IMG/VR virus record: IMGVR_UViG_3300005827_000048
Location: 1 to 35,836 of that record
Source: a virus
Reading direction: 5' to 3' (one strand)
Length of the DNA: 35,836 bases
This document shows, one piece after another, positions 12,746 through 31,679 of the stretch. Position 1 is the first letter of the stretch. Each line of letters opens with the position of its first letter. The position numbers were made by a program, and so were the translations under genes. Under the pieces are notes generated by a model. It saw only the letters and a list, made by a program, of their open reading frames with translations, did no database searches and was not told where the DNA came from.

Positions 12746-13508
12746 AGTTGTATTCTCCTATCTTTATTATACCGCTTGTTGTCAATGCGCACGCCAACCC
12801 GATCCACAGCGCCGCCCAGCCAGTGAACGAATTGACGTAAGGCGAGAACAACGGGCCGCACGCGAGCGCCGCGCCGATGTTGCGCCGGGTGATGGCGTAC
12901 CAGAGAATGATCAGGCCGGGCAGGATGCCATAGGGGAATATGGAAGCGTTCCAGGACTCGTTGATTGGAGTGCCGGGGACGCCGAATATCAGCACGCCCG
13001 CGCAAATTGCGATACATGCCGGGGCGAATGTCGCAATTATGTGTTTATTGTGATATGCCTGCCACGCGATATAGAGCAGGACGCCTGCGGTCATTTGCGG
13101 TTTTGCGAGCAGTACAAACACAGCAAGCGGGGACGGCAGGAATAGCCCGAGAATAACCAGCCCTTCGATGTTCCCAAATATCGCGCCGTGCAGGATCATC
13201 CATAACAGCGGGGCGCAAAGTATGGGCGGGATGCGCAAGCGGTAAAATGCGAACAGGAAGCCGGTCATGTTGAGCGCAAACACGACAAGCGCCCCCACCT
13301 TCGCGGGCAGGATGGCAAGCGGGTAAAGCGCAAGAGCAAGCCAGGGCACGGAGTAGTATTGTTGCGAGTACATCCTGAGCGGGTCAAGCGCCGCCGCGCG
13401 GAAGATGACCCAATCTCCCCCAATCGGAAAGTACAGCCAGCGATCAAACGCGAGCGCCAGCCCGAGCGAGAGCGCAAACACGGACAGCCAGCCTATTGTT
13501 TTCTGCAT
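12729..13508 (-). CDS. Polytopic membrane protein, GT-C/GT87-like glycosyltransferase candidate
   Basis: A 259-residue protein with about seven to nine hydrophobic segments. The N-terminal region matches the pattern of DUF2029/GT87 membrane glycosyltransferases: a first membrane helix, an Asp-containing loop (FPIGGDWVIFRAAA), a tyrosine-rich SQQYYSVPWLALALYPLAIL, then repeated helices. Such enzymes use polyprenyl-phosphate sugars outside the membrane. It is shorter than the usual 350-450 residues, so it may be a minimal or decayed form. The start at 13508 (MQKTIGW) is preferred because AGGA precedes it. It overlaps the upstream methyltransferase gene by 16 bases, suggesting they work together, perhaps on host surface glycans. 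The family call is tentative; the membrane topology is clear. Confidence 0.6.
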   Translation of the reverse strand: MQKTIGWLSVFALSLGLALAFDRWLYFPIGGDWVIFRAAALDPLRMYSQQYYSVPWLALALYPLAILPAKVGALVVFALNMTGFLFAFYRLRIPPILCAPLLWMILHGAIFGNIEGLVILGLFLPSPLAVFVLLAKPQMTAGVLLYIAWQAYHNKHIIATFAPACIAICAGVLIFGVPGTPINESWNASIFPYGILPGLIILWYAITRRNIGAALACGPLFSPYVNSFTGWAALWIGLACALTTSGIIKIGEYNYENII

Positions 13509-18404: not shown

Positions 18405-19100
18405 TTATTCGCCTGTATTACTGACTTTCGAGAGCGGAACGGTCGGACGTGCGCCGCCAGTTTGCGCATTGGATTGCGCCGCGTTATCTGTTTCGCCTGT
18501 TCCGCAGGTTTCCCGCTTCGGGTATGGTTTAGCGAGCGGGGCTATTTGTTTGCGCATTGCATCGTCAAGGGGGTATAGATAGCGGTATTTTCCGGGCGTC
18601 TTTATAATACTTGCGCCTTTCGGAATAGCCTTTTTTGTATTATGACCATGCCCATTATACCGCCGCGGGTCTATCATATCTCCGTTTATTTCTAGCATTT
18701 CCGCGCCTTGTGTTATTCCCGCGAATATCCAATTCATCGCCTGATAAATTGCGCCGTTGTGCTTGTGAAACGGGTCAGCGAAAGAGATAAGTATTCTTAT
18801 TCCTGGGTTTTTCTTTCGCAACATTCTAATTGCTATACTAACAATTTTGCTAACCGGGGATGCATGGTTGTTTAGCGCAACTCTTGTTAGTTCTGCAAAT
18901 TGAAAGTTTTCTAATCCATAAGGTTTCCCAAGTGACGGGCTTGCGCCTAATCCAAAAATAATTACACCGATAAATTTATTGTCTTCCCAAGCTCCGAGAT
19001 AGTTACTTTTATTGGCGGGCAGCGTTTTTGAATAATGCCAATGTTCCACCGCATACCGCGCCGCTTTTGCATCGCACCAATCCAGCCGTAACTCTGTCAT
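18405..19100 (-). CDS. mom: Mom-like DNA base modification protein (GNAT fold)
   Basis: A 231-residue protein with the strong signature of the Mom family. In phage Mu, Mom converts adenine in DNA to a carbamoylmethyl derivative and blocks restriction. Visible motifs are RLDWCDAKAARYAVEHWHYS at the N terminus, LGAWEDNKFIGVIIFGLGAS, FAELTRVAL, SPVSKIVSIAIRML, ILISFADPFHKHNGAIYQA and MNWIFAG. All are in the order found in Mom and related acetyltransferase-fold proteins. The last 40 residues are a low-complexity tail. It overlaps the ParB-like gene by ATGA and lies upstream of the terminase, so it is expressed late, just before packaging. Mu mom is under tight translational control; no equivalent control gene was recognised here. 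Confidence 0.85.
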   Translation of the reverse strand: MTELRLDWCDAKAARYAVEHWHYSKTLPANKSNYLGAWEDNKFIGVIIFGLGASPSLGKPYGLENFQFAELTRVALNNHASPVSKIVSIAIRMLRKKNPGIRILISFADPFHKHNGAIYQAMNWIFAGITQGAEMLEINGDMIDPRRYNGHGHNTKKAIPKGASIIKTPGKYRYLYPLDDAMRKQIAPLAKPYPKRETCGTGETDNAAQSNAQTGGARPTVPLSKVSNTGE

Positions 19101-19594
19101 TTCGGGATAAACTCCGCGCCGCAGTGCGGGCAGGTTATCGGGCTTTTTTGGTCTAGCCTACCTTGCTCATCAATCCCGACAGGTTGAAAGTCAGGCGTAG
19201 CAGGATCAACAAAACCCCACTCACCCAAATCCAGCGGGGCGAAATCGGCTTCTATCTGCTCAGGCTTCCACGCCAAATCAAGCTCAGCAATCTTGTTATC
19301 AGCGTACGCTAATTGCCGCCCGCGCTTGTCTGTCTCGGAGTATAGGTCAAGGTCAGTCCGCTTGACGACTACCAACTCATGCCCGTCTGTTTCAACGATG
19401 CGCACGGGCAGGTCAATTTCCGCCGCGCCTTCGAGCGTCTTATTGCCAGCGATGACGTTACCATGCGCATCTACCAGGATTGAACGACCCGCGCCCAATT
19501 GGCGCAGCGACTTTTCGAGCAAGCCGCGCCCGCGCTGCGTGCCGAGATTTGCATTTTGTCTGTCAGGGGTGATGCCGGATGCGTCTATTTTCAT
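19097..19594 (-). CDS. ParB/Srx-like nuclease-domain protein with C-terminal zinc knuckle
   Basis: A 165-residue protein. Residues 10-60 carry the ParB N-terminal signature (NANLGTQRGRGLLEKSLRQL, GRSILVD, GNVIAGNKTLEGA). This is followed by AYADNKIAELDLAWKPEQIE and LGEWGFVDP, typical of phage ParB-like proteins. The C terminus has CPHCGAEF, half of a zinc-binding site. There is no central helix-turn-helix, so it is not a partition protein. Phage members of this family may act as nucleases or nucleotide-binding partners of DNA modification enzymes. It overlaps the Mom-like gene, so the two products are probably made together and may form one modification pathway. That link is inferred. Confidence 0.78.
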   Translation of the reverse strand: MKIDASGITPDRQNANLGTQRGRGLLEKSLRQLGAGRSILVDAHGNVIAGNKTLEGAAEIDLPVRIVETDGHELVVVKRTDLDLYSETDKRGRQLAYADNKIAELDLAWKPEQIEADFAPLDLGEWGFVDPATPDFQPVGIDEQGRLDQKSPITCPHCGAEFIPK

Positions 19595-19881
19595 TTCGTC
19601 CTATCCACTCCCCAGATTGTGTCGATCAGCCAGCCAGCAACCACGCCCGCGCCGATGGGCAGGAAGCCGCCAAAGTAGCCAGCCAGGAAGCGCGCGTCAT
19701 GGTCTTTGATGCCATCAAGCGAACGCCACGCCACGAGAGCGACAGGGGCAGTCCCTACCACGCCGATACCCGTTCCGATGATTTCTTGATAACCCTGGGG
19801 CATCTTGCGCGTGATGCTGCTTGTTTGGTGCAGGGCCAAGCCCCACAGGAACGCTAGTACAAAGTTTATAGATGATTTCAT
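19591..19881 (-). CDS. Small membrane protein, possible lysis or membrane function
   Basis: A 96-residue protein with hydrophobic segments around 5-18, 34-52 and 65-89, the last being long and glycine-rich (LAGYFGGFLPIGAGVVAGWL). It follows two other small membrane genes with ATGA overlaps, at the front of the late operon. Holins are often of this size and come in such clusters. Without an adjacent endolysin the lysis role is uncertain; it might also act as an antiholin or exclusion protein. No family was recognised. Confidence 0.55.
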   Translation of the reverse strand: MKSSINFVLAFLWGLALHQTSSITRKMPQGYQEIIGTGIGVVGTAPVALVAWRSLDGIKDHDARFLAGYFGGFLPIGAGVVAGWLIDTIWGVDRTK

Positions 19882-20183
19882 TTCATCAGCCTAAATCCCG
19901 TGATGGGTGCCGGTTCTGTGACAGTCTCGCTGCTCTCGTCTGGAACAGGAACGCCCGCCCGGCGCATGTAGTTTTCCAGAAAGTTTATGCGCCGCTGTAA
20001 TCTAGTGTTAGCTTCTGACATTTCCGTGATCTTCTTGTCCATTTCATCCAACCGCTTCCACAACTGCGCAATGTTCCCGACCTTTACATTGGCGCGATTG
20101 GTCAAGGTAAAGTGTATCCCCGCTATGCTGGAAATGACAGCAACCACGGCTATAACGATTTCCAGAGCGGGTGACAGCTCCAT
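19878..20183 (-). CDS. Membrane-anchored coiled-coil protein (inner-spanin-like or holin accessory)
   Basis: A 101-residue protein with one N-terminal membrane helix (residues 6-26, LEIVIAVVAVISSIAGIHF). A predicted coiled coil follows at about 36-75 (LWKRLDEMDKKITEM, RLQRRINFLENYM), then a Pro/Glu-rich C-terminal tail. This layout is shared by inner spanins and by phage proteins of the XhlA haemolysin type, which sit next to holins. It lies directly between two holin-like genes and shares one base with the upstream gene. A lysis accessory role is likely from architecture and location. Confidence 0.6.
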   Translation of the reverse strand: MELSPALEIVIAVVAVISSIAGIHFTLTNRANVKVGNIAQLWKRLDEMDKKITEMSEANTRLQRRINFLENYMRRAGVPVPDESSETVTEPAPITGFRLMK

Positions 20184-20404
20184 TATCGAATAGCAGCCGG
20201 GGGAATTTCCGTATCAGCCAGCACGCGCCGCGTGATCATCACGACGGACAGAATAAATCCGCTGACAGCCGTCACGGTTTTGGCTTCGAGCCCCAGGGTA
20301 ACAAGCAGACCGGAAAACTCCGGGATAAGCGAGATTACTGCCACGAGGACAGCGAGCCAGATTGATTTCGACTTGTACCAGGGTTTGGCGGGGGTTTCTA
20401 TCAT
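20183..20404 (-). CDS. Holin-like protein
   Basis: A 73-residue protein, the first gene of the late operon. A polar start with KPWYKSKSIWLA leads into a first membrane helix (about 13-35), a short loop and a second helix (about 42-60). It ends in a charged tail RRVLADTEIPP. The KPWYxSKxIW opening and the two-helix layout are typical of small phage holins. It would form membrane pores to time lysis. The ribosome binding site CAGGAGT lies 11-13 bases upstream and only a few bases after the predicted late transcript start. Confidence 0.7.
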   Translation of the reverse strand: MIETPAKPWYKSKSIWLAVLVAVISLIPEFSGLLVTLGLEAKTVTAVSGFILSVVMITRRVLADTEIPPAAIR

Positions 20405-20460: not shown

Positions 20461-20544
20461 ATGGCAATTACGGTATAGTATGGGTAATGGGCGCGCCTCT
20501 CGCTCATTCCCGCGCTGGTGTTGCAAGCACGCAGCGCAAAAGTA

Positions 20545-20577
20545 GCCGCCCGGTCTGGGTTCATCCAGCCGGGCGGC
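20545..20577. terminator. Strong stem-loop terminator between the membrane operon and the late operon
   Basis: The stem GCCGCCCGG / CCGGGCGGC (20545-20553 with 20569-20577) continues inside with CTGG / CCAG. It is followed by GGTTTGTTT on the plus strand and TACTTTTG on the minus strand. It lies right after the stop of the 20585-20782 gene and before the late promoter, so it most likely ends the leftward membrane-protein operon. Confidence 0.7.
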
Positions 20578-20584
20578 GGTTTGT

Positions 20585-20782
20585 TTATCGCAGTTCGTCA
20601 AGCTGCTTATCAGTCACTTCTTTTGTATTGATTATTTCTTCCAGGATTGCCAGCCGCTTGGCCTGCCTGACGGTCAAGCCGCACCCGCAAAACGTGAGCA
20701 GCGGGCCGTTAGGGATGCGCGCTATACAGCCATTGTCGCCGTGCATATCGAGCGGGTGTCCACATTCGGGGCAGGTCGTCAT
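20585..20782 (-). CDS. Small zinc-ribbon protein
   Basis: A 65-residue protein with MTTCPECGHPLDMHG at the start, NGCIARIP, then LTFCGCGLTVRQAKRL and a charged helical end. Cys4, Cys7, the later GC and the CGC pair could bind one zinc ion. It is the last gene of the leftward membrane-protein operon and overlaps the preceding gene by ATGA. Such proteins may bind nucleic acid or host proteins. No specific family was recognised. Confidence 0.65.
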   Translation of the reverse strand: MTTCPECGHPLDMHGDNGCIARIPNGPLLTFCGCGLTVRQAKRLAILEEIINTKEVTDKQLDELR

Positions 20783-20886
20783 TCATCACCATCCCGCCGG
20801 TTTGCGCCGCTCGAAGCCAGGCCGCCGGCGATCAGCGCGGCGAATAGGATCAGCGCGCCGGCAATCAGTAAAATGTACAGGGTCAT
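20779..20886 (-). CDS. Very small single-span membrane protein
   Basis: A 35-residue protein: MTLYILLIAGALILFAALIA is one membrane helix, followed by a short polar tail (SSGANRRDGDE). The ATG at 20886 overlaps the upstream stop as ATGA, and the TGA overlaps the downstream start. This tight fit supports it as a gene despite its size. A longer reading from 20970 would run through the zinc finger of the preceding gene and is unlikely. The function is unknown; small helices of this kind often regulate other membrane proteins. Confidence 0.6.
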   Translation of the reverse strand: MTLYILLIAGALILFAALIAGGLASSGANRRDGDE

Positions 20887-21473
20887 TTTGTGCCGTCCTT
20901 TGCTTTGTGTTTGCTTGCGTGACCATTGAGCGCGGCTTGCGTGCCAAACGAGCGCCCACAAGCTGAACACGGATAGCTAATAGCTGGCTTAGGTTCAGCT
21001 TTTACCGGCTTCACTTCGCTAATAGCTGGCTTTTCTTCCGCTATACCTTTGCTCGTAACGGCTATAGCGACCGCTACGAAGTCGGGAGCGATAGCTATAG
21101 CCGCGGCCCACAGCCAACGAGCGAGCGGGTCAGCTAAAATACGCGACGGGATGCCCGCCTGCACAGCCGGGGCGATGATGACGGGAGAGACAATCAGCAG
21201 GGCCACGAGCGCGGCATAGGCTAAATTCTGCGCCTGTTTCGCCTTCATCCTGGGCGCGTTATGGCTGACACCCATCAGGCCAAACGACAGCGCCGTGCCC
21301 ATCGTGGAGCCGCGCAAGAACGAAAAGATGCGCGTCATGGTGTCAGCCGTTTCACCATCGGCCAAAATAAGCGCCGATGAAATCCCGACCGCCTGGGCGA
21401 TACCCAAGAGCAGCATGATAATCTCGGGGTCGCGGGCTTGCCTTATCGCGTTTTTGATCTGCTCAAATGTCAT
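20883..21473 (-). CDS. Multi-span membrane protein with C-terminal C2H2 zinc finger
   Basis: A 196-residue protein. Hydrophobic segments lie at about 17-38, 55-70, 83-106 and 120-140. A Lys/Pro/Ala linker then contains the repeat KPAIS (148-152 and 163-167). The end is a classical C2H2 finger: Cys169, Cys172, His185, His189 with Phe and Leu at the normal core positions (CSACGRSFGTQAALNGH). The spacing is exactly C-x2-C-x12-H-x3-H, the TFIIIA pattern. The finger could bind nucleic acid or a protein at the inner face of the membrane. The start MTFEQIKN at 21473 follows the preceding stop by two bases. I know no phage family with this architecture. Confidence 0.7.
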   Translation of the reverse strand: MTFEQIKNAIRQARDPEIIMLLLGIAQAVGISSALILADGETADTMTRIFSFLRGSTMGTALSFGLMGVSHNAPRMKAKQAQNLAYAALVALLIVSPVIIAPAVQAGIPSRILADPLARWLWAAAIAIAPDFVAVAIAVTSKGIAEEKPAISEVKPVKAEPKPAISYPCSACGRSFGTQAALNGHASKHKAKDGTK

Positions 21474-21477
21474 GTCG

Positions 21478-21711
21478 TCACCAGTTGAACCAGCATACGC
21501 GCGTACCAGCCGTAAACGCCATGCCTTGCGTGCCATCGGCATAGCGCAACATTGCCACGGTATGACCCGCGTAGAGGCGGCAGGACTGCACCAGGGTATC
21601 ATCGTCGAGCATGGATACGCGGACGGTCGTAAACTGCAAGACGATCAGCGCAAGGATAACCAGCTCAAGGATAACGACTGCCAACGCGGCGATCTGTTTT
21701 GTTTTGTTCAT
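21478..21711 (-). CDS. Single-span membrane protein with extracytoplasmic domain
   Basis: A 77-residue protein: one N-terminal membrane helix (about 7-28, rich in Val/Leu/Ile/Ala) and a 48-residue soluble part with two cysteines (VQSCRLYAGH and TRVCWFNW) that could form a disulfide outside the cell. The layout N-in, C-out is expected from the Lys residues at the start. It overlaps the preceding gene by ATGA. The function is unknown; it may bind a surface component or another phage membrane protein in this operon. Confidence 0.6.
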   Translation of the reverse strand: MNKTKQIAALAVVILELVILALIVLQFTTVRVSMLDDDTLVQSCRLYAGHTVAMLRYADGTQGMAFTAGTRVCWFNW

Positions 21712-21914
21712 CTGCGCACCTCCCGCCCAAAATAGTCAGTCTTAGGCGCTTTCTTTTTACCAACATACTCATACACATTGCCGCCAATCTCGATAAATTC
21801 TGGGGCGATCTTGTCTTTCTTTTTTGCGCCCTCTTTGCGCGATGGCTTTGGCGCAATCAGGATGATAAATCCAATCAGCACAAGCGCCATGATGTAAAGC
21901 AGTAAATCTTGCAT
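21708..21914 (-). CDS. Small membrane protein with basic cytoplasmic tail
   Basis: A 68-residue protein starting MQDLLLYIMALVLIGFIIL, one membrane helix. A strongly basic stretch follows (KPSRKEGAKKKDK), then a short folded segment (FIEIGGNVYEYVG) and another basic end. The start at 21914 is chosen because GGGGAGGT lies seven to eight bases upstream. A longer start at 21995 would place this binding site inside the gene. The function is unknown. The basic tail could contact nucleic acid or lipid head groups. Confidence 0.65.
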   Translation of the reverse strand: MQDLLLYIMALVLIGFIILIAPKPSRKEGAKKKDKIAPEFIEIGGNVYEYVGKKKAPKTDYFGREVRR

Positions 21915-21954
21915 ACCAACTACCTCCCCACCCCGAAAGGGTGAATAATGCTGT

Positions 21955-22971
21955 CTATCTATCGGTTTGCGCCGCTGGGGGCGCTTCCTGGGCATCTTGC
22001 GCGGGTGGGGGAGTGGTTACGCCCGTCAATTCCGCAATCCACGCCAGGCCATCAGGCAGTATCGTCATTCCCGCGCTGTGATCATCCGCGTTGTTCCACT
22101 TTGCAAGATCATATTTTGCAAGCGAATATTGAAGCACGGAAAACTTACCCTCGCTCAGGCCGTTTGTGCGGGGCGTGAAGTTGTCATGCACAAACGCTTC
22201 GCCGCTTGAAATGCGGTAAGCAATATCCCGCAAATCTACCGCGTCAATTCCAGTCTCCCGACATAGCGCCGCCGTGCTTATCTTCCTGCCAGCAGTTCCC
22301 GCGAAGGGTGGAACGCTTGCGACTTGCGCCGGTTCCGGATCTTCCGCGACAGGCTCAAGCCGCCATTGGCGCTCATTCTGGATTTTTTCCCAGATGAGCC
22401 ACGTTCCGAAGAATGTCAGAACCAGCGCGATAATAGACACGATGATTGTAGCCGCGGCTATAACGTCGGGCATCATCTCCGCTACTTTTCGGTTGCGCTC
22501 ATCAATCGGAGCTTGTGCCGTAGCGGTCGCGTTCCCGGCGCTTGTCGCCTGCACAAATAGGCTGTACTGCGCCTGCGTCGCCCGCCCTACTGCGTCAGCG
22601 GTTGCGGATGCCTTGACCTGGGCGCGTTCTGTCTCTTGCGCGTGCAGGCTATCGTAAAATACAGCCGTCTCAGCGGCATCTCGCACGGCCATGTCGAGCC
22701 GGACTTTTGCGGCTTGCTCGTTGGCTTGGGCCGCGGCCAGTTCTGCGCGGGCCTGCTCGAGTTTGAGCGCGTCAGGCGTTGCGGTTGGGGCGATGGTGGG
22801 CGGGGTGATCTGGGTGGAAGTCTGAACCGCCGCCATGATACCAGCCGGGGCCGCGTCTTGCGCCTGCGGGATGGACGGCAGGGTGCCCGCGATCTGTGAA
22901 CAGGCCGCAAATGTACCCATGATAACAATTGCGATTGCGACCCAAATGCACCCGCGAAATAGTTTTTCCAT
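21955..22971 (-). CDS. Lipoprotein-signal, coiled-coil, membrane protein with C-terminal globular domain
   Basis: A 338-residue protein. Residues 1-24 form a lipoprotein signal ending in FAAC (Cys24). About 48-66 are a Thr/Ala/Pro linker (TQITPPTIAPTATPDA) of the kind common in Chloroflexota lipoproteins. About 67-160 are an Ala/Glu/Gln-rich coiled coil, 168-193 a membrane helix, and 195-338 a soluble domain. The last includes a helix-turn-helix-like stretch (STAALCRETGIDAVDLRDIA). If both lipid anchor and helix are used, the coiled coil is outside the cell and the C-terminal domain inside. This could be a transmembrane sensor or an exclusion protein. The family is unknown; the linker hints at acquisition from, or adaptation to, a Chloroflexota host. 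Confidence 0.65.
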   Translation of the reverse strand: MEKLFRGCIWVAIAIVIMGTFAACSQIAGTLPSIPQAQDAAPAGIMAAVQTSTQITPPTIAPTATPDALKLEQARAELAAAQANEQAAKVRLDMAVRDAAETAVFYDSLHAQETERAQVKASATADAVGRATQAQYSLFVQATSAGNATATAQAPIDERNRKVAEMMPDVIAAATIIVSIIALVLTFFGTWLIWEKIQNERQWRLEPVAEDPEPAQVASVPPFAGTAGRKISTAALCRETGIDAVDLRDIAYRISSGEAFVHDNFTPRTNGLSEGKFSVLQYSLAKYDLAKWNNADDHSAGMTILPDGLAWIAELTGVTTPPPAQDAQEAPPAAQTDR

Positions 22972-22973
22972 CG

Positions 22974-23204
22974 TTATTCGTCCTTAATGGTGACGATCAT
23001 CCCGCCACCCTTGCGATAATGTGACGTTGCAATTTTGTTGCCGCCGTAGCGTTTCGACCCGCCTTCAATATTGAACGAGTCGAACATCGCACCCAGATCA
23101 TGCCGCGCCTTCGCATCCAACAGCGCGCCGAATAGCGCCCACAGCAGGACGCCTACCAGGAAGCACACAGCCAGCCCGAATATGAAAATTCCTGCGTCGC
23201 TCAT
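22974..23204 (-). CDS. Small single-span membrane protein
   Basis: A 76-residue protein with the start MSDAGIFIFGLAVCFLVGVL, one membrane helix (about 5-28). A 48-residue polar tail follows with SFNIEGGSKRYGG and a basic HYRKGGG segment. The start at 23204 is chosen because the membrane helix then begins at the N terminus; upstream codons overlap the preceding gene and have no binding site. It is the second gene of the leftward operon. The function is unknown. Confidence 0.6.
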   Translation of the reverse strand: MSDAGIFIFGLAVCFLVGVLLWALFGALLDAKARHDLGAMFDSFNIEGGSKRYGGNKIATSHYRKGGGMIVTIKDE

Positions 23205-23220
23205 TTCTGGCCGTCCACTT

Positions 23221-23457
23221 TCAGCACACCCGCCGCGTCCCGCCATGATCCGGCGCCGCGATTGCGCTCGAGGGCTCGAGGGCCGCGCGAGCTTCTGCTT
23301 CCTGCCGGTCAAGCTCCACGACCAGCAGGGCCGCGGCGCGCCGGATAACCGCGTCAAATGTGACATTGTCGGGGCTGGTTGCGTTCATCCGCTCGCGTAA
23401 CCGGGTCAGCGTTTCCTTTGTTGCTTCCGTGAGTGCGATCCTTTTCTGTTTTTCCAT
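23221..23457 (-). CDS. Ribbon-helix-helix-like transcription regulator
   Basis: A 78-residue protein beginning MEKQKRIALTEATKETLTRL. A basic strand followed by two helices (ETLTRLRERM and FDAVIRRAAALLVVEL) fits a CopG/Arc ribbon-helix-helix DNA-binding protein. The start at 23457 follows AAGGAG and lies about 16 bases after the predicted transcript start. Upstream ATGs lie before that start. It is the first leftward gene from the divergent control region, which contains a large palindrome over both -35 boxes. It is therefore the best candidate for the regulator of both operons. Only family resemblance and location support this. Confidence 0.65.
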   Translation of the reverse strand: MEKQKRIALTEATKETLTRLRERMNATSPDNVTFDAVIRRAAALLVVELDRQEAEARAALEPSSAIAAPDHGGTRRVC

Positions 23458-23479: not shown

Positions 23480-23508
23480 ATAATACGACTATCCACGCAA
23501 TATGTCAA
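23480..23508 (-). promoter_or_regulatory. Leftward promoter for the regulator and membrane operon
   Basis: TTGACA (23508-23503), a 17-base spacer and TATTAT (23485-23480) on the minus strand form a near-consensus sigma-70 promoter. The transcript would start near 23473, directly at the ribosome binding site of the regulator gene. Confidence 0.82.
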
Positions 23509-23531
23509 GCAATTGTTCAAAACGCTTGACA
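23503..23531. promoter_or_regulatory. Palindromic operator spanning both divergent -35 boxes
   Basis: TGTCAAGC (23503-23510) and GCTTGACA (23524-23531) are perfect inverted copies separated by 13 bases. Each copy contains the -35 box of one of the two divergent promoters, so one bound protein could silence both. Confidence 0.75.
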
Positions 23532-23554
23532 AGTATATACTTATCTGATATATT
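23526..23554 (+). promoter_or_regulatory. Rightward early promoter
   Basis: TTGACA (23526-23531), a 17-base spacer and TATATT (23549-23554) form a near-consensus promoter for the early operon. The spacer holds a perfect 12-bp palindrome, AAGTATATACTT (23531-23542), a second possible operator. Confidence 0.85.
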
Positions 23555-23599: not shown

Positions 23600-23827
23600 A
23601 TGAAAAAGACAGCCAAGAAGCAAATGAAGCAATACACGATGGTCGTCAAGTTATGCGAAGGCGTAAACGACAGGCGCTTTTCATTTGATGCCGAAAACGA
23701 TGAGTGCGCCGATGTTATCGCCTTCCGCTGGTCGCACTATCACGGAATGTACAGCCGCGACATTTGGGCAGTCCCCGCAACCGCTCACGAAGCGGAACAC
23801 TGTATGCATAACGAGTACATCCGCTAA
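23600..23827 (+). CDS. First early protein, unknown function
   Basis: A 75-residue protein, the first gene after the rightward early promoter. It has AGGAAG seven bases before the ATG. The N terminus is strongly basic (MKKTAKKQMKQ). The rest is mixed, with a YHGMYSRDIWAVPATAHEAEH segment containing several His residues. There is no membrane segment. First early genes often encode host takeover proteins; nothing more specific can be read. Confidence 0.65.
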   Translation: MKKTAKKQMKQYTMVVKLCEGVNDRRFSFDAENDECADVIAFRWSHYHGMYSRDIWAVPATAHEAEHCMHNEYIR

Positions 23828-23878
23828 TCCACCCACCCCAACGCCGAGCCGGGCGGCTATACCCGGCAAAGGATAACC

Positions 23879-24337
23879 ATGACAAAAATTCTCGTAGACT
23901 TACCGCAAGAAATGATTGACGCCCTGCCGACCGGCAAGGGCCGCGAAGGTGGGCGCGCCGAATACATCCGCACCGCCCTGGCCGCCGCACTCGCCAGCGA
24001 CAAGCCGACCACCCACCGGGCCAGCTTCGCATTTGGCGGGAACGACTTTTTGAGCGAAGATACGAACGGTAACATATATATGACAGAAGTTAGTAGAGTT
24101 ATTCCGTTTTATGATTTGGGAGATAAGTTAGCTGCGGCTTTTATTCAGCACACCGAAACCGGCAGCCATCCCGACTGCGTTATTTGCCAGGATAAGCAGA
24201 AACGCGCCTTCGCATCCGGGCGCGTGACCGATGGCGGAGAAACGATTATCACGCCAGCTGACCCGCGCAGCGAAGCCGAGCGGGAACACGACGACGCCGG
24301 GCTGGATTTGCTCGACACTCAGCGCAACGCACGGTAA
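23879..24337 (+). CDS. Putative ribbon-helix-helix protein with C-terminal extension
   Basis: A 152-residue protein. The first 45 residues (TKILVDLPQEMIDAL, then EGGRAEYIRTALAAALA) fit a ribbon-helix-helix DNA-binding domain: a strand, a helix, a G-rich turn and a second helix. The remainder is soluble, with CVICQDKQK and an acidic end (SEAEREHDDAGLDLLD). The preceding AAAGGA gives a binding site. It may be a second early regulator acting with the leftward one. The C-terminal part has no recognised family. Confidence 0.6.
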   Translation: MTKILVDLPQEMIDALPTGKGREGGRAEYIRTALAAALASDKPTTHRASFAFGGNDFLSEDTNGNIYMTEVSRVIPFYDLGDKLAAAFIQHTETGSHPDCVICQDKQKRAFASGRVTDGGETIITPADPRSEAEREHDDAGLDLLDTQRNAR

Positions 24338-24430
24338 CACGCGGGCGGTAGCGATCACGCTCAAAGCCGCCCCACTAGCCAGCCGCACGGCATGGCAAAA
24401 CAATCACACAATGGCTTAGGAGGCCACACC

Positions 24431-24889
24431 ATGAACCTGAACGATATGTTCCCCAGCACGTCCCTGAAATCCGCCGACTTTGAAGATGGCGGCACCATGA
24501 CCCTGACCATCAAGAAAGTGGAAATTCGCGACCTGGGTCAGCAGGATGCTAAGGAAATGAAGCCCTGCCTGTCCTTCGATGAAGTTGATAAATCGCTGGT
24601 GCTGAACAAGACCAACGCCATGATTATCGCCGGCATGTATGGCGACAAGAATATTGACGTCACATGGATTGGCAAGAAGATCACCCTGCATGTGGAAATG
24701 ACCACATTCCAGGGCAAGCCCACCCCCGGCATCCGCGTCAAGCTGATCGACAGCAAGCAGGCCGCCATCAATGCCTTTTGGGAACGCGCTAACGATGCTT
24801 TCCTGACCCCGGAAGAGGGCCGCAAGCTGCTCAAGCAGGCCAACGGGGATTTTGTTGCCGCGCTGGAACTAATCAACCCGCCCGCATAA
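24431..24889 (+). CDS. Conserved early phage protein, replication-module type
   Basis: A 152-residue soluble protein starting MNLNDMFPSTSLKSADFEDG and continuing with TMTLTIKKVEIRDLG, LVLNKTNAMIIAGMYGD, WIGKKITLHVEMTTFQGK and PGIRVKLID. The pattern of a small beta-barrel-like domain with LVLNKTN and WIGKKITL is common in small phage replication regions. Its function is not settled; single-strand DNA binding is one possibility. The start is set by TTAGGAGG, seven bases before the ATG at 24431. The C-terminal 40 residues are helical (EEGRKLLKQANGDFVAAL). Confidence 0.65.
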   Translation: MNLNDMFPSTSLKSADFEDGGTMTLTIKKVEIRDLGQQDAKEMKPCLSFDEVDKSLVLNKTNAMIIAGMYGDKNIDVTWIGKKITLHVEMTTFQGKPTPGIRVKLIDSKQAAINAFWERANDAFLTPEEGRKLLKQANGDFVAALELINPPA

Positions 24890-24959
24890 TTCATCCGCAT
24901 AGCACCCCACAGCCCGCGCTCGAAAGGGCGCGGGCATATCAGAACAGGAGTAATGAGCG

Positions 24960-25472
24960 ATGAAAGTAAAATGCCATAACTGCCCAACCGTACTCCCGCG
25001 CGAAGATATGTTCTATGTCGACACAAATATTTTTGTGTGCAGTGAGTGCTTGGAAGTCATTGACGCCGAACGCGCCGCGGACAAGATCCGCGTCATGCAG
25101 GCCACCATCGACCGCCAGGCCGCCGAACTCAGCGCCGCCCGCGCGATCAATGACGAGCGGGCATCGGTCATCGAAGAGTTTGAGCAGTACAATTTATACG
25201 CCGCGCAGGTGTACGAAGCCGAACAGCGCAAAGTACAACAGCAAGCCGCCGAGTTGTCCACTGCTCACGAAATGAATGATATACGATCCGCGATCATCGA
25301 GCGGCTTACGGGCGAATTGAACGATTTGCGCATGCGCAACGAAGAACTAACCGACGCCCTAAAATGCATGTACGATACCTTTAGCACGATGGGGTCAGCC
25401 CTTCCTCCGGGCCAGCGTTTTGGCGAAGGCGCAAACCGCAAAGCCCGCGAAGTTTTGGAGCGCGCAAAATGA
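24960..25472 (+). CDS. Zinc-ribbon and coiled-coil protein
   Basis: A 170-residue protein. The N terminus has CHNCPTVLPREDMFYV and VCSECLEVID (two CxxC pairs, about residues 5-8 and 28-31), a likely zinc ribbon. The rest is a long Ala/Glu/Arg-rich coiled coil (DRQAAELSAARAINDERA, then TGELNDLRMRNEELTDALK). The ATG at 24960 lies nine bases after AGGAG. A GC-rich hairpin (about 24912-24935) precedes it but lacks a T tract. The function is unknown; it may be a scaffold or nucleic acid-binding helper. Confidence 0.65.
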   Translation: MKVKCHNCPTVLPREDMFYVDTNIFVCSECLEVIDAERAADKIRVMQATIDRQAAELSAARAINDERASVIEEFEQYNLYAAQVYEAEQRKVQQQAAELSTAHEMNDIRSAIIERLTGELNDLRMRNEELTDALKCMYDTFSTMGSALPPGQRFGEGANRKAREVLERAK

Positions 25473-25654
25473 CCACGCCCGAGCCGGTACACTTCGCGGT
25501 CAAACAGCCGGGCCGCAATCCGTCCAGCAACTTCCTGCCCGCCAATTTCGCCGCCCTGCACGCCGGGCCGATGGCGGCATGGAGCGACAATAAATCACAG
25601 GTGACATGCCCGGTGTGCCTGGGCATCCTGGTCGATAAAGCGAGCGCAAAATGA
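25469..25654 (+). CDS. Small protein with single CxxC pair
   Basis: A 61-residue protein with a C-terminal VTCPVCLGILVDKASAK and an otherwise Pro/Ala/Asn-rich sequence. One CxxC pair is not enough for a full zinc site in a monomer, so a dimeric or shared site is possible. It overlaps both neighbouring genes by four bases (ATGA). The function is unknown. Confidence 0.55.
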   Translation: MTTPEPVHFAVKQPGRNPSSNFLPANFAALHAGPMAAWSDNKSQVTCPVCLGILVDKASAK

Positions 25655-25857
25655 ACGGAGTAACCTATCTGAGCGCATACCGCCGGGCGTTTGTTATGTG
25701 CATGACAATGCGGGATCTGTACGGGAAAAGCTACGGGATAGCCGTGGACAAAACTAACTACCACGCGCTCCGCTGGCAGAAGTTTGACAGACAGGCGCGC
25801 AAGTTTGAAGATCGTCTGTTTGCCGTGCTTCAAAAAGCGGATTCCGCAACCAAGTAA
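25651..25857 (+). CDS. Small basic protein, unknown function
   Basis: A 68-residue basic protein rich in Tyr, Arg and Lys (YLSAYRRAFVM, YGKSYGIAV, WQKFDRQARKFEDRLF). It is helical and soluble. It overlaps the previous gene by ATGA and is the last gene before the replication leader. No family was recognised. The composition would suit binding to nucleic acid. Confidence 0.55.
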   Translation: MNGVTYLSAYRRAFVMCMTMRDLYGKSYGIAVDKTNYHALRWQKFDRQARKFEDRLFAVLQKADSATK

Positions 25858-25913
25858 CCCCGCCGCCCGTGCGATGGGCGGCAATCTGGCCCGCGCAAAG
25901 CGGGCAGATGGTG

Positions 25914-25919
25914 TATAAT
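25914..25919 (+). promoter_or_regulatory. -10 box of a probable promoter for the replication leader
   Basis: A perfect TATAAT lies downstream of two GC-rich hairpins, with no good -35 box at the right distance. Transcription would start near 25926 and give a leader of about 177 bases before the replication initiator gene. Confidence 0.45.
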
Positions 25920-25931
25920 CAAATCAATCTA

Positions 25932-26084
25932 GTGCGATGAACGTAAGCGCACAACCAGCTTGGCGGCTGGAAATAGGTAGGGCAGCATCACCTTTATTTC
26001 TGGGTGTCTCGTCTGTCTTTTATGCACCTACCTGCATAACCGCCAACCGAGACACGGGACACCCAGAAGCAAAGGTGATTTTTT
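25932..26084 (+). ncRNA. Structured leader of the replication gene with terminator hairpin
   Basis: About 150 bases without a gene hold an ordered set of hairpins. GTGCG/CGCAC pairs at 25932-25936 with 25948-25952. CCAGC/GCTGG pairs at 25955-25959 with 25966-25970. A long stem follows, in which 25987-26012 pairs with 26054-26079 with few mismatches. Six T residues come directly after it, as in an intrinsic terminator. Inside its loop is a small hairpin TATGCA/TGCATA whose loop CCTACC(T) at 26027-26033 is complementary to AGGTAGG at 25975-25981. This allows a pseudoknot or an alternative fold. The ribosome binding site of the initiator follows the T run. No known riboswitch class was recognised. 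Confidence 0.7.
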
Positions 26085-26102
26085 ATTCACGGAGGTTACG
26101 CA

Positions 26103-26930
26103 ATGAGTAAGACGGTTTTGGCAACAGTAGATGGATTTACCCCCGTCATAGACGCAGTGGTGCAAGATGTAGGGCCGATGGCTGCACTTGCGTTCGGTAA
26201 GGTTTGGCGCTACTGCCAGATGAGTGATGGGGTATGCAAGGCAAGCCAGGAACGCATGGCGGAAGAATTGAAAATCACCCGCCAAACGATGAACACCCAC
26301 ATCGAAACACTGGTAAATGCTGGTTATCTCGTAGACACGACGCCGGGATTATTGGGTGTCCCCCACGTTTACGCCGATACTGGTAAGGCCAACCTGTCAA
26401 TTTCTTTTACAGGTAGTTGTCAAAATAACATACACCTACCTGTAAAGAATTTTGACACTAAGATAGTATCTAAGAAAGAAGATAAGACACTTGGGGATTT
26501 AGAACGCAGAACCGACGCCACGATCAAAGGCGATCTTGCGCAAGCATACATCGACTTCGCAATGGCGCCAGGTATGAAGAAGTCAATCCGAATGGATAAC
26601 ATTGCAAGTGTAATCAATGTCCGACTCGGCATCAATCCGGGTAAACGCTGGCAGGACTTCATGGAGTACGCAGACCAACGCGCCCAAAAAGACGGTCAGC
26701 TTCTTACGGTGTTCTTGGACTGGCTACAATGTCAGCCCGGCTTCGATGTTTCATTTTGGCCGCCCGCTAAACTACAGGAAAACTGGCCGCGCGCCTTTCA
26801 AAATGCCGCCGCGCCGAAGTCTGCAATCAGTGACGAAGAAAACGCCCGCATCCAATTTGAGCTTGGCCGCCCCGCACCTGCCGATCAATGCGTTCCTAAT
26901 CCGGGCCGCCGCGCAAGGGTGACGGCATGA
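26103..26930 (+). CDS. Replication initiator (phage O/replisome-organiser-like)
   Basis: A 275-residue protein. About residues 35-85 form a winged helix-turn-helix (CKASQERMAEELKITRQTMN, then ETLVNAGYLVDTTPG), as in phage O-type and plasmid Rep proteins. A poorly conserved linker (about 95-135) is encoded by AT-rich DNA containing a large inverted repeat (26395-26457), the probable origin. The C-terminal half is helical and would recruit the helicase or its loader (MDNIASVINVRLGINPGKRW). It starts seven bases after GGAGG, right behind the leader terminator. The next genes are a small protein and a DnaB helicase, which supports initiation of replication as its role. Confidence 0.78.
   Translation: MSKTVLATVDGFTPVIDAVVQDVGPMAALAFGKVWRYCQMSDGVCKASQERMAEELKITRQTMNTHIETLVNAGYLVDTTPGLLGVPHVYADTGKANLSISFTGSCQNNIHLPVKNFDTKIVSKKEDKTLGDLERRTDATIKGDLAQAYIDFAMAPGMKKSIRMDNIASVINVRLGINPGKRWQDFMEYADQRAQKDGQLLTVFLDWLQCQPGFDVSFWPPAKLQENWPRAFQNAAAPKSAISDEENARIQFELGRPAPADQCVPNPGRRARVTA
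26395..26457. other. Candidate replication origin: nested inverted repeat inside the initiator gene
   Basis: The arms 26395-26416 and 26436-26457 are inverted copies matching at 18 of 22 positions. They are built of TGTCAA/TTGACA outside and TTTACAGGTAG/CTACCTGTAAA inside, with a 19-base centre. The region and the next 50 bases are AT-rich compared with the surrounding gene. It encodes the linker of the initiator protein. This mirrors lambda, where O binds iterons inside its own gene. The inner motif AGGTAG/CTACCT also occurs twice in the leader (25975-25980 and 26028-26033). Confidence 0.55.
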
Positions 26931-27127
26931 ACCGCGAACTGCAAGAGATAATCATGGGCATACAGGAACACAGGGACTATCTGCAATTACTCATGGATCA
27001 AATTGACGCGGGGACATTTCCAAAGGCAGATCCGCGCATAGTTGTCAGGATTGACGACGCAAAAGTATTGAGCCGCTTTTCGAGCGTCGAGGCGCTGGCG
27101 GAATGGCTAGCGAAAGGATGGGAATGA
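26927..27127 (+). CDS. Small protein between initiator and helicase, possible loader or adaptor
   Basis: A 66-residue, mostly helical acidic protein (MNRELQEIIMGIQEHRDYLQ, VEALAEWLAKGWE). It overlaps the initiator by ATGA and the helicase gene by four bases. Genes in this slot often encode helicase loaders or their small partners, but this one is too short for an AAA+ loader. The function is unknown; an adaptor role is suggested only by position. Confidence 0.55.
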   Translation: MNRELQEIIMGIQEHRDYLQLLMDQIDAGTFPKADPRIVVRIDDAKVLSRFSSVEALAEWLAKGWE

Positions 27128-28509
27128 TGACAACCACTAAAGCCCCTTATTACGTTGCCCCACCTGAACCGCAATTTCAGGAATACGCCGAAGCGCCCAC
27201 TCCCCAGGGCCGCGAAGAGGAAGCCGCGCTGATCGGCGCGTGCCTGCGCCGGGGTCAGTTGTTCGATGAACTACGCGAGCAGGTCAAGCCCGCATCTTTC
27301 GGATGGTCAGCCTACGCGGAAGCCTGGCAGGCAATGGGCAAACTGCACGCCGCCGGGATGGGCATTGATGCGGTCATGGTCAGCGATGAACTCGCCCGCC
27401 TGGGCCGTCTGGATACCTGGCAGATGCACGACGGGCCGATGTTCGCCGGGATTGGCCGAGCCGCTGTGTCTTACGTGCGGGATCTGGGCCAGCCGCAAAA
27501 CGCGAGAAGCTACGCCGCCGCCGTGCTGGATTACGCGGCTAAACGGGAACTCAGCGAGATTGCCAACCTTATGGCGAAATGGTCAGCCAATGGCCGCCGG
27601 GCCGCTGATATTCTCACAGACATTGAAAAGAAGCTCAGCGCCGTACAGGTCTCGGGCGGGCTAAAAGCGGATGCGCACACAGCCACGATGAAGGAAGCAC
27701 TCGCAAAAGCATACGACCAGACAGACAAGGCAAGCCGGGGCGAGATAACGTACATCCCGACAGACTATAAGGCGCTGGATCAAATCGTTGTAGGGTTTAC
27801 CGCTCCCGACTTGTGGATTATTGGAGGGTTGCCCGGCATGGGCAAAACTGCGCTCATGCTCAATCTTGCGCGCAATGCCGCGAAGAACGGAGCGCGGGTG
27901 ATGTTCTTCACGCTGGAAATGGCACGCGAACAACTCGCAATGCGCATGGTCAGCATGTACAGCGGGATCAGCTACCAAAAGCAATTGACGGGCCACATGC
28001 CGGATGATGATTGGGCTGTGTACAACACGGCTATTGAAGCCATCGAACGGGACGACATGGGTATAGTTCTAAACGACATGCCCGCGATAAGCCCCGCCCG
28101 CATCCGTCAGCAGTTGCGCAAGAATGGGCCGTTTGATCTCGTCTTTGTCGATTACCTTCAAATTATGGGGCCGGATGAAAAGTACGATGTCAGGAACCAG
28201 GAAGTAGCCGCAATCGCGCAAGCCCTGAAAGACACCTGCAAAGAGTTCAGCGTGCCCATCGTAGCCGGGGCGCAAATGAACCGCGAAAGTCAGAAGGGCC
28301 GCAGCAACGCCCGCCCGCAAAATTCAGACCTGGGCGAGAGCAGCAAGATTGAGCAAGTGGCAGACAAAATCCTGTTTGTTCACGGCGAGAGCCTGAACAG
28401 CACAGCCCGCGAGATAATCGTGAGCAAGCACCGCAACGGGCCGACAGGGTCGGCCAATTTGACATACATTGGATTCAAGACATTATTCCAGGATGGGGAA
28501 AAACTATGA
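27124..28509 (+). CDS. dnaB: Replicative DNA helicase, DnaB type
   Basis: A 461-residue hexameric helicase. The N-terminal domain (about 30-150) is helical and typical of DnaB (EEEAALIGACLRRGQLFDEL, then YAEAWQAMGKLHAAG). The RecA-like C-terminal domain has the Walker A motif GGLPGMGKTA (about 233-242) and FTLEMAREQLAMRMVS (motif H1a). Walker B is DLVFVDYLQIMGP, followed by GAQMNRESQKGR and the DLGESSKIEQVADKILFVHG arginine-finger region. All DnaB motifs are present, so it is likely active. Two ATGs (27124, 27127) overlap the previous stop. It is the only fork enzyme in the genome, so the host must supply polymerase and probably primase. Confidence 0.93.
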   Translation: MMTTTKAPYYVAPPEPQFQEYAEAPTPQGREEEAALIGACLRRGQLFDELREQVKPASFGWSAYAEAWQAMGKLHAAGMGIDAVMVSDELARLGRLDTWQMHDGPMFAGIGRAAVSYVRDLGQPQNARSYAAAVLDYAAKRELSEIANLMAKWSANGRRAADILTDIEKKLSAVQVSGGLKADAHTATMKEALAKAYDQTDKASRGEITYIPTDYKALDQIVVGFTAPDLWIIGGLPGMGKTALMLNLARNAAKNGARVMFFTLEMAREQLAMRMVSMYSGISYQKQLTGHMPDDDWAVYNTAIEAIERDDMGIVLNDMPAISPARIRQQLRKNGPFDLVFVDYLQIMGPDEKYDVRNQEVAAIAQALKDTCKEFSVPIVAGAQMNRESQKGRSNARPQNSDLGESSKIEQVADKILFVHGESLNSTAREIIVSKHRNGPTGSANLTYIGFKTLFQDGEKL

Positions 28510-28745
28510 AATGCGCGTTCAGGAGATGTGACAATCCGACCCGCCCCAATTGCCTATACTGCTGTACCCGCTGCGCCAAGCGCGAGAGCTCAGCGGTTGC
28601 GCACGATCTGGTCAGGAACGCCAGGGTAACAGGCATCCGCGATGAAATAGAGCATCAGGCGAGCAGGCCCGGCCCGAAATGGAATGAGCGCCGCGCAGCC
28701 ATCCGCGCCAAATATGGCATATCTCGCCCGCTGGAGTTGATCTGA
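28506..28745 (+). CDS. Small Cys-rich protein, paralogue A
   Basis: A 79-residue protein with MKCAFRRCDNPTRPNCLYCC and TRCAKRESS at the N terminus: CxxxxC then CxxCCxxxC, a likely zinc site. The C-terminal half (EIEHQASRPGPKWNERRAA, IRAKYGI) is basic. It resembles the next gene closely at both ends, so the two are a tandem duplication that has diverged. It overlaps the helicase by ATGA. Function is unknown; zinc finger plus basic helix suggests DNA or RNA binding. Confidence 0.65.
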   Translation: MKCAFRRCDNPTRPNCLYCCTRCAKRESSAVAHDLVRNARVTGIRDEIEHQASRPGPKWNERRAAIRAKYGISRPLELI

Positions 28746-29098
28746 TGAAATGCGAATATCGCAAGTGCGAAAAAGAAGCGCCCGCCGGTCGCCGCTACTG
28801 TGATCGTAAATGCTGCCAAAAAGAATGTACTCAGAGAGCCGCGGACGTGCGCCGTTCAGGAAGTGAACGCGGGGAAAATATGCGAGCAAAGGAAGCCGCC
28901 CGCGATAAGCTGCGCTACCAGGAGCGAGCCGCACAGACCGCCCGAAAGGATTTGATCGAACACCAGGCGAGCCGCAATACAAAATCCTGGGATGAGCGCA
29001 AAGCAGAGATCCGCGCAAAGTATGGCGTCAAATTCCCAGAACGCGCCACAATTACGCGCAATAATCCAAGCATCATGTTTGTGGAGGTGGTAGGATGA
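28745..29098 (+). CDS. Small Cys-rich protein, paralogue B
   Basis: A 117-residue protein. The N terminus (MKCEYRKCEKEAPAGRRYCD, RKCCQKECTQ) and the C-terminal motif (DLIEHQASRNTKSWDERKAE, IRAKYGV) align with the preceding 79-residue gene. Between them is an inserted, highly charged helical segment (about 35-75). It begins at the last base of the previous stop (TGATG). The longer charged helix could form a coiled coil or bind nucleic acid. Together with gene A it looks like an expanding zinc-protein family within this phage. Confidence 0.68.
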   Translation: MKCEYRKCEKEAPAGRRYCDRKCCQKECTQRAADVRRSGSERGENMRAKEAARDKLRYQERAAQTARKDLIEHQASRNTKSWDERKAEIRAKYGVKFPERATITRNNPSIMFVEVVG

Positions 29099-29271
29099 AA
29101 AAGTTTTCTTATCTCAAATACACCGTCCCTGTCGGGCTGATATTCGGGGTTGCGCTTGGAACGATGAAATCCCCGGAAAGCCTGTCTATTTCGTTTCTGG
29201 TTATCCCGCTCATCATCGGGGCTGTGATTACCGTCGGCTATATTATAGCGAGCTCGTGGCGGGAATTATGA
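29095..29271 (+). CDS. Two-helix small membrane protein
   Basis: A 58-residue protein: MKKFSYLKYTVPVGLIFGV begins a first membrane helix (about 9-24). A short loop (MKSPESLS) leads to a second helix (about 31-52, FLVIPLIIGAVITVGYIIA), then the tail SSWREL. The ATG overlaps the previous stop and the TGA overlaps the next start by four bases each, which supports its reality. The hairpin topology is typical of small holins or membrane regulators, but the gene lies in the early operon, so an early membrane role is more likely than lysis. Confidence 0.65.
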   Translation: MKKFSYLKYTVPVGLIFGVALGTMKSPESLSISFLVIPLIIGAVITVGYIIASSWREL

Positions 29272-29462
29272 CCACGCGCCACTACATCGGCGGGCCTGGC
29301 AAGCCCGCGAAGGATGGGATGCCGCTCAAACTGGAGTATCACGTTATATGCCCATCGTGCCGGCTTGTTTTCTGGACGCGCCATCCGTTTAGATTTGTTT
29401 GCCCGCGATGCGGGTACGATAATGCGGTAAAGGGTGAACAGGTGGTAAAGGAGCAAGCATGA
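29268..29462 (+). CDS. Zinc-ribbon mini-protein
   Basis: A 64-residue protein with ICPSCRLVFWTRHPFRFVCP and RCGYDNAVKG in its second half: two CxxC pairs 16 residues apart, a clear zinc ribbon. The start at 29268 is chosen for its ATGA overlap with the preceding small membrane gene. It also overlaps the PAPS-reductase-like gene by four bases. Such mini-proteins may bind nucleic acids or host enzymes. The function is unknown. Confidence 0.65.
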   Translation: MTTRHYIGGPGKPAKDGMPLKLEYHVICPSCRLVFWTRHPFRFVCPRCGYDNAVKGEQVVKEQA

Positions 29463-30253
29463 TACACGTAGGAAGTTTTTCAACTGGCATTGTTTCCGCC
29501 CTGATGTGTGAGCGCATGATAAAGCGCTATGGAAAAGAAAATTGCCTATTCGTTTTTATGGACACCCTGATTGAAGATCCTGACAACTACCGCTACATGG
29601 CGGATGTTGAAAAGTATTTGGGCGTGGAAGTCGTCAAGTTGACAGAAGGGCGCACGCCGTACCAGGTGTTTACGGATGAGCATGTTATACCGTCCGCCCG
29701 TTTTGCGCCGTGTACGTTGCGCCTCAAACTAAAAATGTTCCGCGCCTACATCGCCACGCTGCCCAAGCCGCTGACCGTTCATATCGGCTACGATGTATTC
29801 GAGTTGGAACGCTGCGAGCCGACGCGCAAGAATTACGAGAAGTTGGGGTATTCGGTAGACTTCCCGATGTTGTGGAAGCCCTACGAATACCGCGATTATT
29901 CGGTAGTAATGCGCGAAGAGTGGGGAATAGAGCCGCCTGAAATGTACCGCTTAGGCTACACTCACGCCAATTGCGGCGGTCGCTGTGTGAAGCAGGGTCA
30001 GGGTGACTGGCTGCGCACACTCATAAATCATACTGATAGGTTTGCAGAAGTCGAAGCCTGGGAAAACCAGATGAGACAGAAACAGAAGGATAACAATAAA
30101 AGACAGTATGCTATTGCCAAAAGTCGCAAGGGCGGAACAATGCGCCCGCTTCCATTGTCAGAATTGCGCGCAAGATACGAAGCCAATCCGAATCAGCGCC
30201 TTGATCTTCTTGACGAGCAAAGCACCTGTGTTGTGTGCGGTATCGGCGGATGA
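29459..30253 (+). CDS. PAPS reductase/PP-loop ATPase-like protein
   Basis: A 264-residue protein of the adenine-nucleotide alpha hydrolase type. The N-terminal PP-loop is HVGSFSTGIVSAL (SFSTG-IVS, residues 6-13). It is followed by LFVFMDTLIEDPDNYRYM and VEVVKLTEGRTPYQVF, typical of phage PAPS reductase-like proteins. Cysteines occur in FAPCTLRLKLK (the CTxxLKx motif), NCGGRCVKQGQGDW and, at the end, CVVCGIGG. These could bind a metal cluster or zinc. Phage members are thought to act in sulfur transfer or nucleotide modification rather than sulfate reduction, for example in phosphorothioate or tRNA thiolation pathways. The substrate is unknown. It overlaps both neighbours by ATGA. Confidence 0.78.
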   Translation: MIHVGSFSTGIVSALMCERMIKRYGKENCLFVFMDTLIEDPDNYRYMADVEKYLGVEVVKLTEGRTPYQVFTDEHVIPSARFAPCTLRLKLKMFRAYIATLPKPLTVHIGYDVFELERCEPTRKNYEKLGYSVDFPMLWKPYEYRDYSVVMREEWGIEPPEMYRLGYTHANCGGRCVKQGQGDWLRTLINHTDRFAEVEAWENQMRQKQKDNNKRQYAIAKSRKGGTMRPLPLSELRARYEANPNQRLDLLDEQSTCVVCGIGG

Positions 30254-30546
30254 ATGACCTCCCCGTATTCATCCGCTGGCTGCTCATGCCGCCGTGGGTG
30301 CCGCGCCCAGTGTACATGCGCTGGTATTCCGACTACCTGCGCACGGATCATTGGTGCACATTCTCCCGCTGGCATCGCCGCGTCTGGACTTTGCGCGGTG
30401 GCCGTTGTGATGTGTGCGGACGGGCGCGGGCGGAACAGGTGCATCACCTGCCCGGCGCTTATGCGTGGTGCTGGCTTGAATGGCTGGTGCCGTGGAAGTT
30501 TCGTAATCTCTGTGCTTCCTGCCATTATCGCACACACGCCAAATGA
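30250..30546 (+). CDS. HNH-type endonuclease-like protein
   Basis: A 98-residue protein with the metal- and zinc-binding pattern of HNH nucleases: RCDVCGRARAEQVHHLPG (CxxC then HH), then FRNLCASCHYRTH (N..C..CH). A basic, Trp-rich N terminus (RWYSDYLRTDHWCTFSRWHR) may contact DNA. The start at 30250 overlaps the previous stop as ATGA; upstream codons would lie inside the PAPS-reductase-like gene. It may cut DNA during packaging or host takeover, or act as a mobile homing enzyme. Catalytic residues look intact. Confidence 0.72.
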   Translation: MNDLPVFIRWLLMPPWVPRPVYMRWYSDYLRTDHWCTFSRWHRRVWTLRGGRCDVCGRARAEQVHHLPGAYAWCWLEWLVPWKFRNLCASCHYRTHAK

Positions 30547-30648
30547 CACCAGGAAACGCAAGGACAGGCCTTTCTTTTCTAGGCATAGCGTGAGCCGGAA
30601 ACGCTGTGAAATCGCCAAATTCCCCGCATATTTTCGAGAATTTGGGCA
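30547..30648. other. Intergenic stretch upstream of the LuxR-HNH promoter
   Basis: About 100 bases between the HNH gene and the next promoter hold no convincing gene. A short T-rich stretch (CTTTCTTTTCT) follows the HNH stop codon without a strong stem. Nothing else was recognised. Confidence 0.5.
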
Positions 30649-30677
30649 TTGCAAGCGGGACGGACAAGGCGTATAAT
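30649..30677 (+). promoter_or_regulatory. Promoter for the LuxR-HNH gene
   Basis: TTGCAA (30649-30654), a 17-base spacer and a perfect TATAAT (30672-30677) make a strong sigma-70 promoter. The transcript would start near 30684 and run through a hairpin with a T run (30708-30769) before the next gene. Confidence 0.8.
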
Positions 30678-30707
30678 AGAGACATAACAGCCTGTTCAGA
30701 GGCCAAA

Positions 30708-30769: not shown

Positions 30770-30781
30770 GGAGATAATCGA

Positions 30782-31671: not shown

Positions 31672-31679
31672 CAAGCATC

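Follow-up and report, generated by a model that had tools for sequence, protein, structure and literature searches.

What might a phage gain from eight leftward genes, kept in a unit of their own opposite its early operon, most of whose products belong to no recognised family? The question is raised by a block at positions 20585-23457 of the window, that is, of the whole 35,836-nucleotide stretch of DNA analysed here (IMG/VR virus record IMGVR_UViG_3300005827_000048). A preliminary description had suggested membrane-directed host takeover, superinfection exclusion or immunity evasion, and the anatomy of the block is compatible with any of these roles. Our findings support an operon that is dedicated to unrecognised membrane proteins and transcribed on its own, and analogy with known phage systems leads us to view it, tentatively but ahead of the other readings, as an early and accessory set of membrane ORFan genes with its own ribbon-helix-helix (RHH) regulator and with superinfection exclusion as its most likely function.

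Genome organization

Positions 1-120 and 35717-35836 of the window are identical, and because this 120-bp terminal direct repeat is exact we regard the genome as complete and circularly closing, with a unit of 35,716 bp and with a junction that is crossed by a single tail-type gene (34228 to 524, 670 aa). The genome comprises three transcription units. The rightward early operon (23600-32308) encodes a replication initiator-like protein, DnaB, a PAPS-reductase-like protein and HNH- and VRR-type nucleases, and the leftward late operon, running from 20404 through the junction to 32383, encodes the membrane proteins h1-h3 followed by ParB-like, Mom, TerS, TerL, portal, Mu F-like, capsid and tail proteins. 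The block lies between the two as a third transcription unit, distinct from both, and sits at the early control region, not in the late operon.

An operon with its own promoter and terminator

All eight ORFs of the leftward block are present on the minus strand, as had been claimed. In codon log-odds each of them lies above no fewer than 99% of the genome's wrong-frame windows, and the codon use of all eight resembles that of the well-supported genes of the genome. From g1 to g8 the intergenic gaps measure 16, 2, 40, -4, 4, -4 and -4 nt, the three 4-nt overlaps (g4/g5, g6/g7 and g7/g8) being ATGA start/stop overlaps.

The consensus promoter and the terminator that were said to bound the block could both be located. 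The block promoter (TTGACA-17-TATTAT; 23508-23480, minus strand) matches the consensus at 11 of 12 positions and stands back to back with a divergent early promoter (TTGACA-17-TATATT, with an extended -10; 23526-23554, plus strand). Since a first generic scan at a looser threshold had not risen above chance, we made a stricter count, in which sites with 11/12 matches occur three times in the whole genome versus about 0.1 expected from shuffles; the divergent early promoter is one of the other two. The block is closed by an intrinsic terminator (20538-20577, minus strand), that is, a 13-bp GC-rich hairpin (20577-20545) followed by the U run UACUUUU (-29.4 kcal/mol, z -5.4), which the generic scan missed because its stem is interrupted; a 180-base gap then leads to h1. 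The presence of an early-type promoter, a regulator and a terminator argues that the block is expressed as soon as infection begins and disfavours a role in lysis. Two symmetric elements lie between the divergent genes. An inverted repeat (TGTCAAGC-13-GCTTGACA; 23503-23531) covers both -35 boxes and may be only a reflection of the two -35 hexamers, and a perfect 12-bp palindrome (AAGTATATACTT; 23531-23542), located within the early promoter and unique in the window, is a candidate operator.

The first gene of the block, g1 (23221-23457, minus strand; 78 aa; SD AAAGGAG), is probably its regulator. Its earlier designation as an RHH protein holds as a resemblance, the match of residues 1-51 to Pfam RHH_1 (14.3 bits, E = 0.04) lying below the cut-off of 20.5 bits. 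Relatives, too, have RHH-type genes at their early control region; one of these (in contig L009) exceeds the Arc cut-off (21.9 versus 20.4) and another (in L087) is near RelB. A match of g1 to a PPR protein in a search of solved structures (E = 0.0008, 28 residues) was judged to be due to chance, as no stretch was significant alone.

A DNA-binding-type gene that stands first in a unit divergent from the early genes, with membrane genes behind it, is likewise the arrangement of lambda cI-rexA-rexB, and the block could by this layout be the immunity operon of a temperate phage, with g1 as the repressor and the membrane genes switched on in the lysogen. We consider this very unlikely. The block shares no sequence similarity with the lambda genes, and the ParB-like protein is of the phage methyltransferase-associated type. 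Moreover, no integrase, transposase, excisionase or partition ATPase was recognised in the complete genome, the lack of a recognised integrase disfavouring lysogenic immunity, and the phage is probably lytic (virulent).

The block proteins and their predicted topology

Where five to six proteins with one to four membrane helices had been proposed beside a lipoprotein-like transmembrane protein, hydropathy predicts membrane segments in six of the eight products (g2 to g7). The remainder of the genome has about six such proteins among 47, a difference with p about 0.0007 by a one-sided Fisher test that is post hoc and uses a gene list counted by hand. By hand count, nine of the ten genes in the run from g2 to h3 are of the membrane type, g8 being the only one without a helix. 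Single membrane helices are present in g2 (22974-23204, minus strand; 76 aa, helix 6-24), which has a basic tail, in g4 (21708-21914, minus strand; 68 aa, helix 4-22), whose tail is strongly basic, and in g7 (20779-20886, minus strand; 35 aa); the positive-inside rule would place all three tails in the cytoplasm. By the same rule, the approximately 50-aa domain with two Cys that follows the helix (7-25) of g5 (21478-21711, minus strand; 77 aa) is probably outside. The last protein, g8 (20585-20782, minus strand; 65 aa), had been described as a zinc-ribbon protein; it is indeed Cys/His-rich and zinc-ribbon-like, its resemblance to a known type being weak (phrog_1311, E = 0.002). An early-operon protein (31737-32042) is its paralogue (blastp E = 3e-5), a link between the block and the early genes of the phage itself.

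The largest protein, g3 (21955-22971, minus strand; 338 aa), consists of an N-terminal membrane/lipobox segment (GTFAAC24), a Pro/Thr linker, a long helix (66-149), a membrane helix at about 170-188 and a C-terminal domain of about 140 aa. Judged by eye, GTFAAC conforms to a loose lipobox pattern; the strict pattern prefers L/V/I at -3. The second larger protein, g6 (20883-21473, minus strand; 196 aa), combines three to four membrane helices with a C-terminal C2H2 zinc finger (167-191), which the preliminary description had omitted and which, as a C-x2-C...H-x(3-5)-H finger, exceeds the Pfam cut-off (zf-C2H2_6, 27.2 versus 25 bits, E = 3.8e-6). AlphaFold2 (AF2) models of g6 and g3, built without alignments, are weak overall (pLDDT 57 and 58, respectively), the finger (pLDDT 72-84) being the best-modelled part of g6 apart from its N-terminal end. 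Segment 66-149 of g3 is modelled as a single helix with pLDDT mostly 77-91 and is probably outside, in which case the C-terminal domain would be cytoplasmic. For the latter a strand-helix-helix-strand-helix order is predicted at pLDDT of about 30-55, making a winged helix possible as far as the model goes; this domain matched no family, its Foldseek matches to HTH proteins all have E > 0.2, and a search of solved structures gave nothing for the tail.

Homology searches and the question of lysis

Searches of Pfam, PHROGs, NCBIfam and PADLOC returned only the g6 finger above cut-off, in agreement with the earlier statement that most members have no recognised family, and gave no relevant match of the block to known exclusion or defence families. 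Nor did the family searches of the block proteins find a match to holins or spanins, the first of two findings that had been named beforehand as refuting the proposal. Scans of viral contigs with g1, g3, g5 and g6, and with an early gene (24431-24889), using a method that detects close relatives only, gave nothing; tblastn searches for g3, g6 and g8 in reference phages and for g6 in plasmids, as well as a search at the DNA level, gave nothing useful; and neither g3 nor g6 was found in the complete records that underlie 39 relatives. In fold searches against viral structures, g3 and g6 yielded nothing better than E = 0.1, with matches of g6 confined to the finger. A scan of viral contigs for the g6-type finger pattern produced two matches, but in neither case does a membrane protein carry a finger of this type.

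The lipobox-like N-terminal end of g3 and its later membrane helix invite comparison with spanins, and one may ask if the block is a lysis or lysis-control module in which g3 would be an unusual unimolecular spanin and g2, g4, g5 and g7 would be holin- or antiholin-like. In favour of this, no other endolysin, holin or spanin reached a family threshold anywhere in the complete genome, which may reflect either a highly diverged enzyme or a host without ordinary murein; the Pro/Thr-rich linker of g3 (PTATP/ATATAQA) hints, as we presume, at a Chloroflexota host. Nonetheless, a lysis module appears quite unlikely to us. The block has its own early-type promoter and terminator, none of its proteins matches a lysis family, and the late operon opens with h1-h3 (19591-20404, minus strand), three membrane genes in a holin-like position where relatives keep theirs. 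Furthermore, the prototype of the unimolecular spanins, T1 gp11, carries its membrane domain at the C-terminal end and consists mainly of beta structure (PMC6139136), whereas g3, which resembles it in a loosely lipobox-like N-terminal end and a membrane helix, has this helix internally (170-188 of 338 residues), is predicted to be helical in its outer part, carries an inside tail of about 140 aa and is encoded outside a lysis cassette. Spanin and holin readings of the block are disfavoured, as is lysogenic immunity. The earlier assertion that the block is separate from the late lysis genes stands in so far as h1-h3 form part of a separate unit; the identity of these as lysis genes is unproven, no lysis gene having reached family threshold and h1 matching holin models at E = 0.012-0.013 only.

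Relatives and gene order

A search with the terminase matched 141 contigs, of which the best, at 78-79%, end just upstream of ParB, and three relatives (L009, L006 and L087) are readable across the early/late junction. In these the regulator/early genes are followed by one to three small membrane genes and then by ParB-like, TerS and TerL, the late strand opening directly with membrane genes or others ahead of the ParB-like gene, and counterparts of g1-g8 are absent. In this limited sample of three readable relatives the gene order is thus not conserved, which is the second finding that had been named beforehand as refuting the proposal. We conclude that the block is accessory and specific to its lineage and does not represent a conserved system, its absence being consistent with a module that can be swapped. 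Among 54 relative contigs of at least 8 kb, the largest same-strand cluster of membrane genes within eight genes has four members, as compared with six for the window in the same count, although the crude gene caller lost g2 and g5. The position of h1-h3 matches that of the membrane genes of L009, but their sequences match no membrane gene of the relatives; we infer that the whole junction evolves fast and that the equivalence to relatives is one of position.

Possible functions of the block

We prefer superinfection exclusion since this is what the best-known membrane proteins made early by phages do. To our knowledge, known exclusion functions need one protein and not eight. In the scenario that we favour, host RNA polymerase would start the block at once, alongside but opposite to the early operon, under control of the RHH-like g1, which would probably bind the palindromic shared promoter region, and the products would enter the host cytoplasmic membrane. 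There, g2, g4 and g7 would form single-helix proteins with basic cytoplasmic tails, g5 would expose a small extracytoplasmic Cys pair, g3 would place a coiled coil outside and a domain inside, and the polytopic g6 would hold its zinc finger on the inner side, so that a membrane altered early in infection might no longer allow a second phage to deliver its DNA. T4 Imm and Sp as well as HK97 gp15 are phage-encoded exclusion membrane proteins (PMC4737114), likewise small and expressed apart from structural genes; in contrast, the block comprises eight genes with their own regulator and has no sequence match to them. The proposed exclusion role thus draws on general resemblance and not on a homologue of known function. 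Most plausibly, the block either protects the infected cell from competing phages or takes over functions of the membrane.

The latter possibility corresponds to an early membrane-directed host takeover without exclusion, by small fast-evolving host-shutoff ORFans that would inhibit or redirect the transport, division, energy or respiration machines of the host. Host-takeover regions of phages typically hold small orphan early genes, and the evidence from promoter, position and membrane segments applies equally to this reading. We consider it somewhat unlikely. Nothing specific speaks against it, although g3 and g6 exceed the usual shut-off peptides in size and degree of structure. If it is correct, the block would be another cassette of early membrane ORFans, from an uncultured phage lineage.

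A different role is suggested by the finger at the C-terminal end of the polytopic g6, the predicted order of secondary structure in the g3 C-terminal domain and the basic cytoplasmic tails of g2 and g4: g3 and g6 might tether replicating phage DNA to the membrane. Phage phi29 uses the membrane proteins p1 and p16.7 to anchor DNA (PMC4974454), and g6 would share with these a possible nucleic-acid-binding domain on the inside, DNA binding by its finger being putative. However, the folds differ as far as they could be modelled, and the block has a multi-helix C2H2 protein. Moreover, C2H2 fingers can also bind proteins, the low pLDDT of the g3 domain and its want of convincing matches weigh against this reading, and the phage has a DnaB helicase while genes for protein-primed replication were not found. 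Such an anchor is an unlikely alternative. To a further variant we accord only a slim chance, namely that the products assemble into a multi-protein membrane complex which, under RHH control, gates or captures DNA by nucleic-acid-binding domains at the inner face (the g6 finger and the possible g3 winged helix).

A complex of this kind would constitute a new type of DNA anchoring or exclusion apparatus, acting on phage or incoming DNA. If either exclusion or DNA anchoring proves to be correct, a multi-gene membrane module would join a field in which the known cases are small proteins acting singly; a C2H2 finger on a membrane protein would in itself be an unusual design. Because its boundaries are clear, the block should be easily cloned and tested.

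Other features of the genome

The major capsid gene (10323-12242) encodes a 639-aa protein with a prohead-protease-like N-terminal half (S78 match below cut-off), and a third near-consensus promoter (TTGACA-17-TATACT; 12422-12450, minus strand) is located just upstream of it. A seven-helix membrane protein of unrecognised family is encoded among the head genes (12729-13508), and its relative in L006 (258-1013) adjoins a DNA methylase. Tandem Cys-rich small paralogues (28506-28745 and 28745-29098; E = 3e-16) are found in the early operon. At 18405-19594 the Mom-type DNA modification gene (PF25680, E = 3e-42) adjoins the gene for a short ParB-like protein; L004 and L005 lack Mom and have a ParB-like protein of 386 aa, which gives the impression that the second half was replaced. 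Together with an N4/N6 methylase (521-1309) and the PAPS-reductase-like gene of the early operon (29459-30253; phrog_424, E = 3e-34), Mom possibly provides the phage with more than one route of DNA modification.
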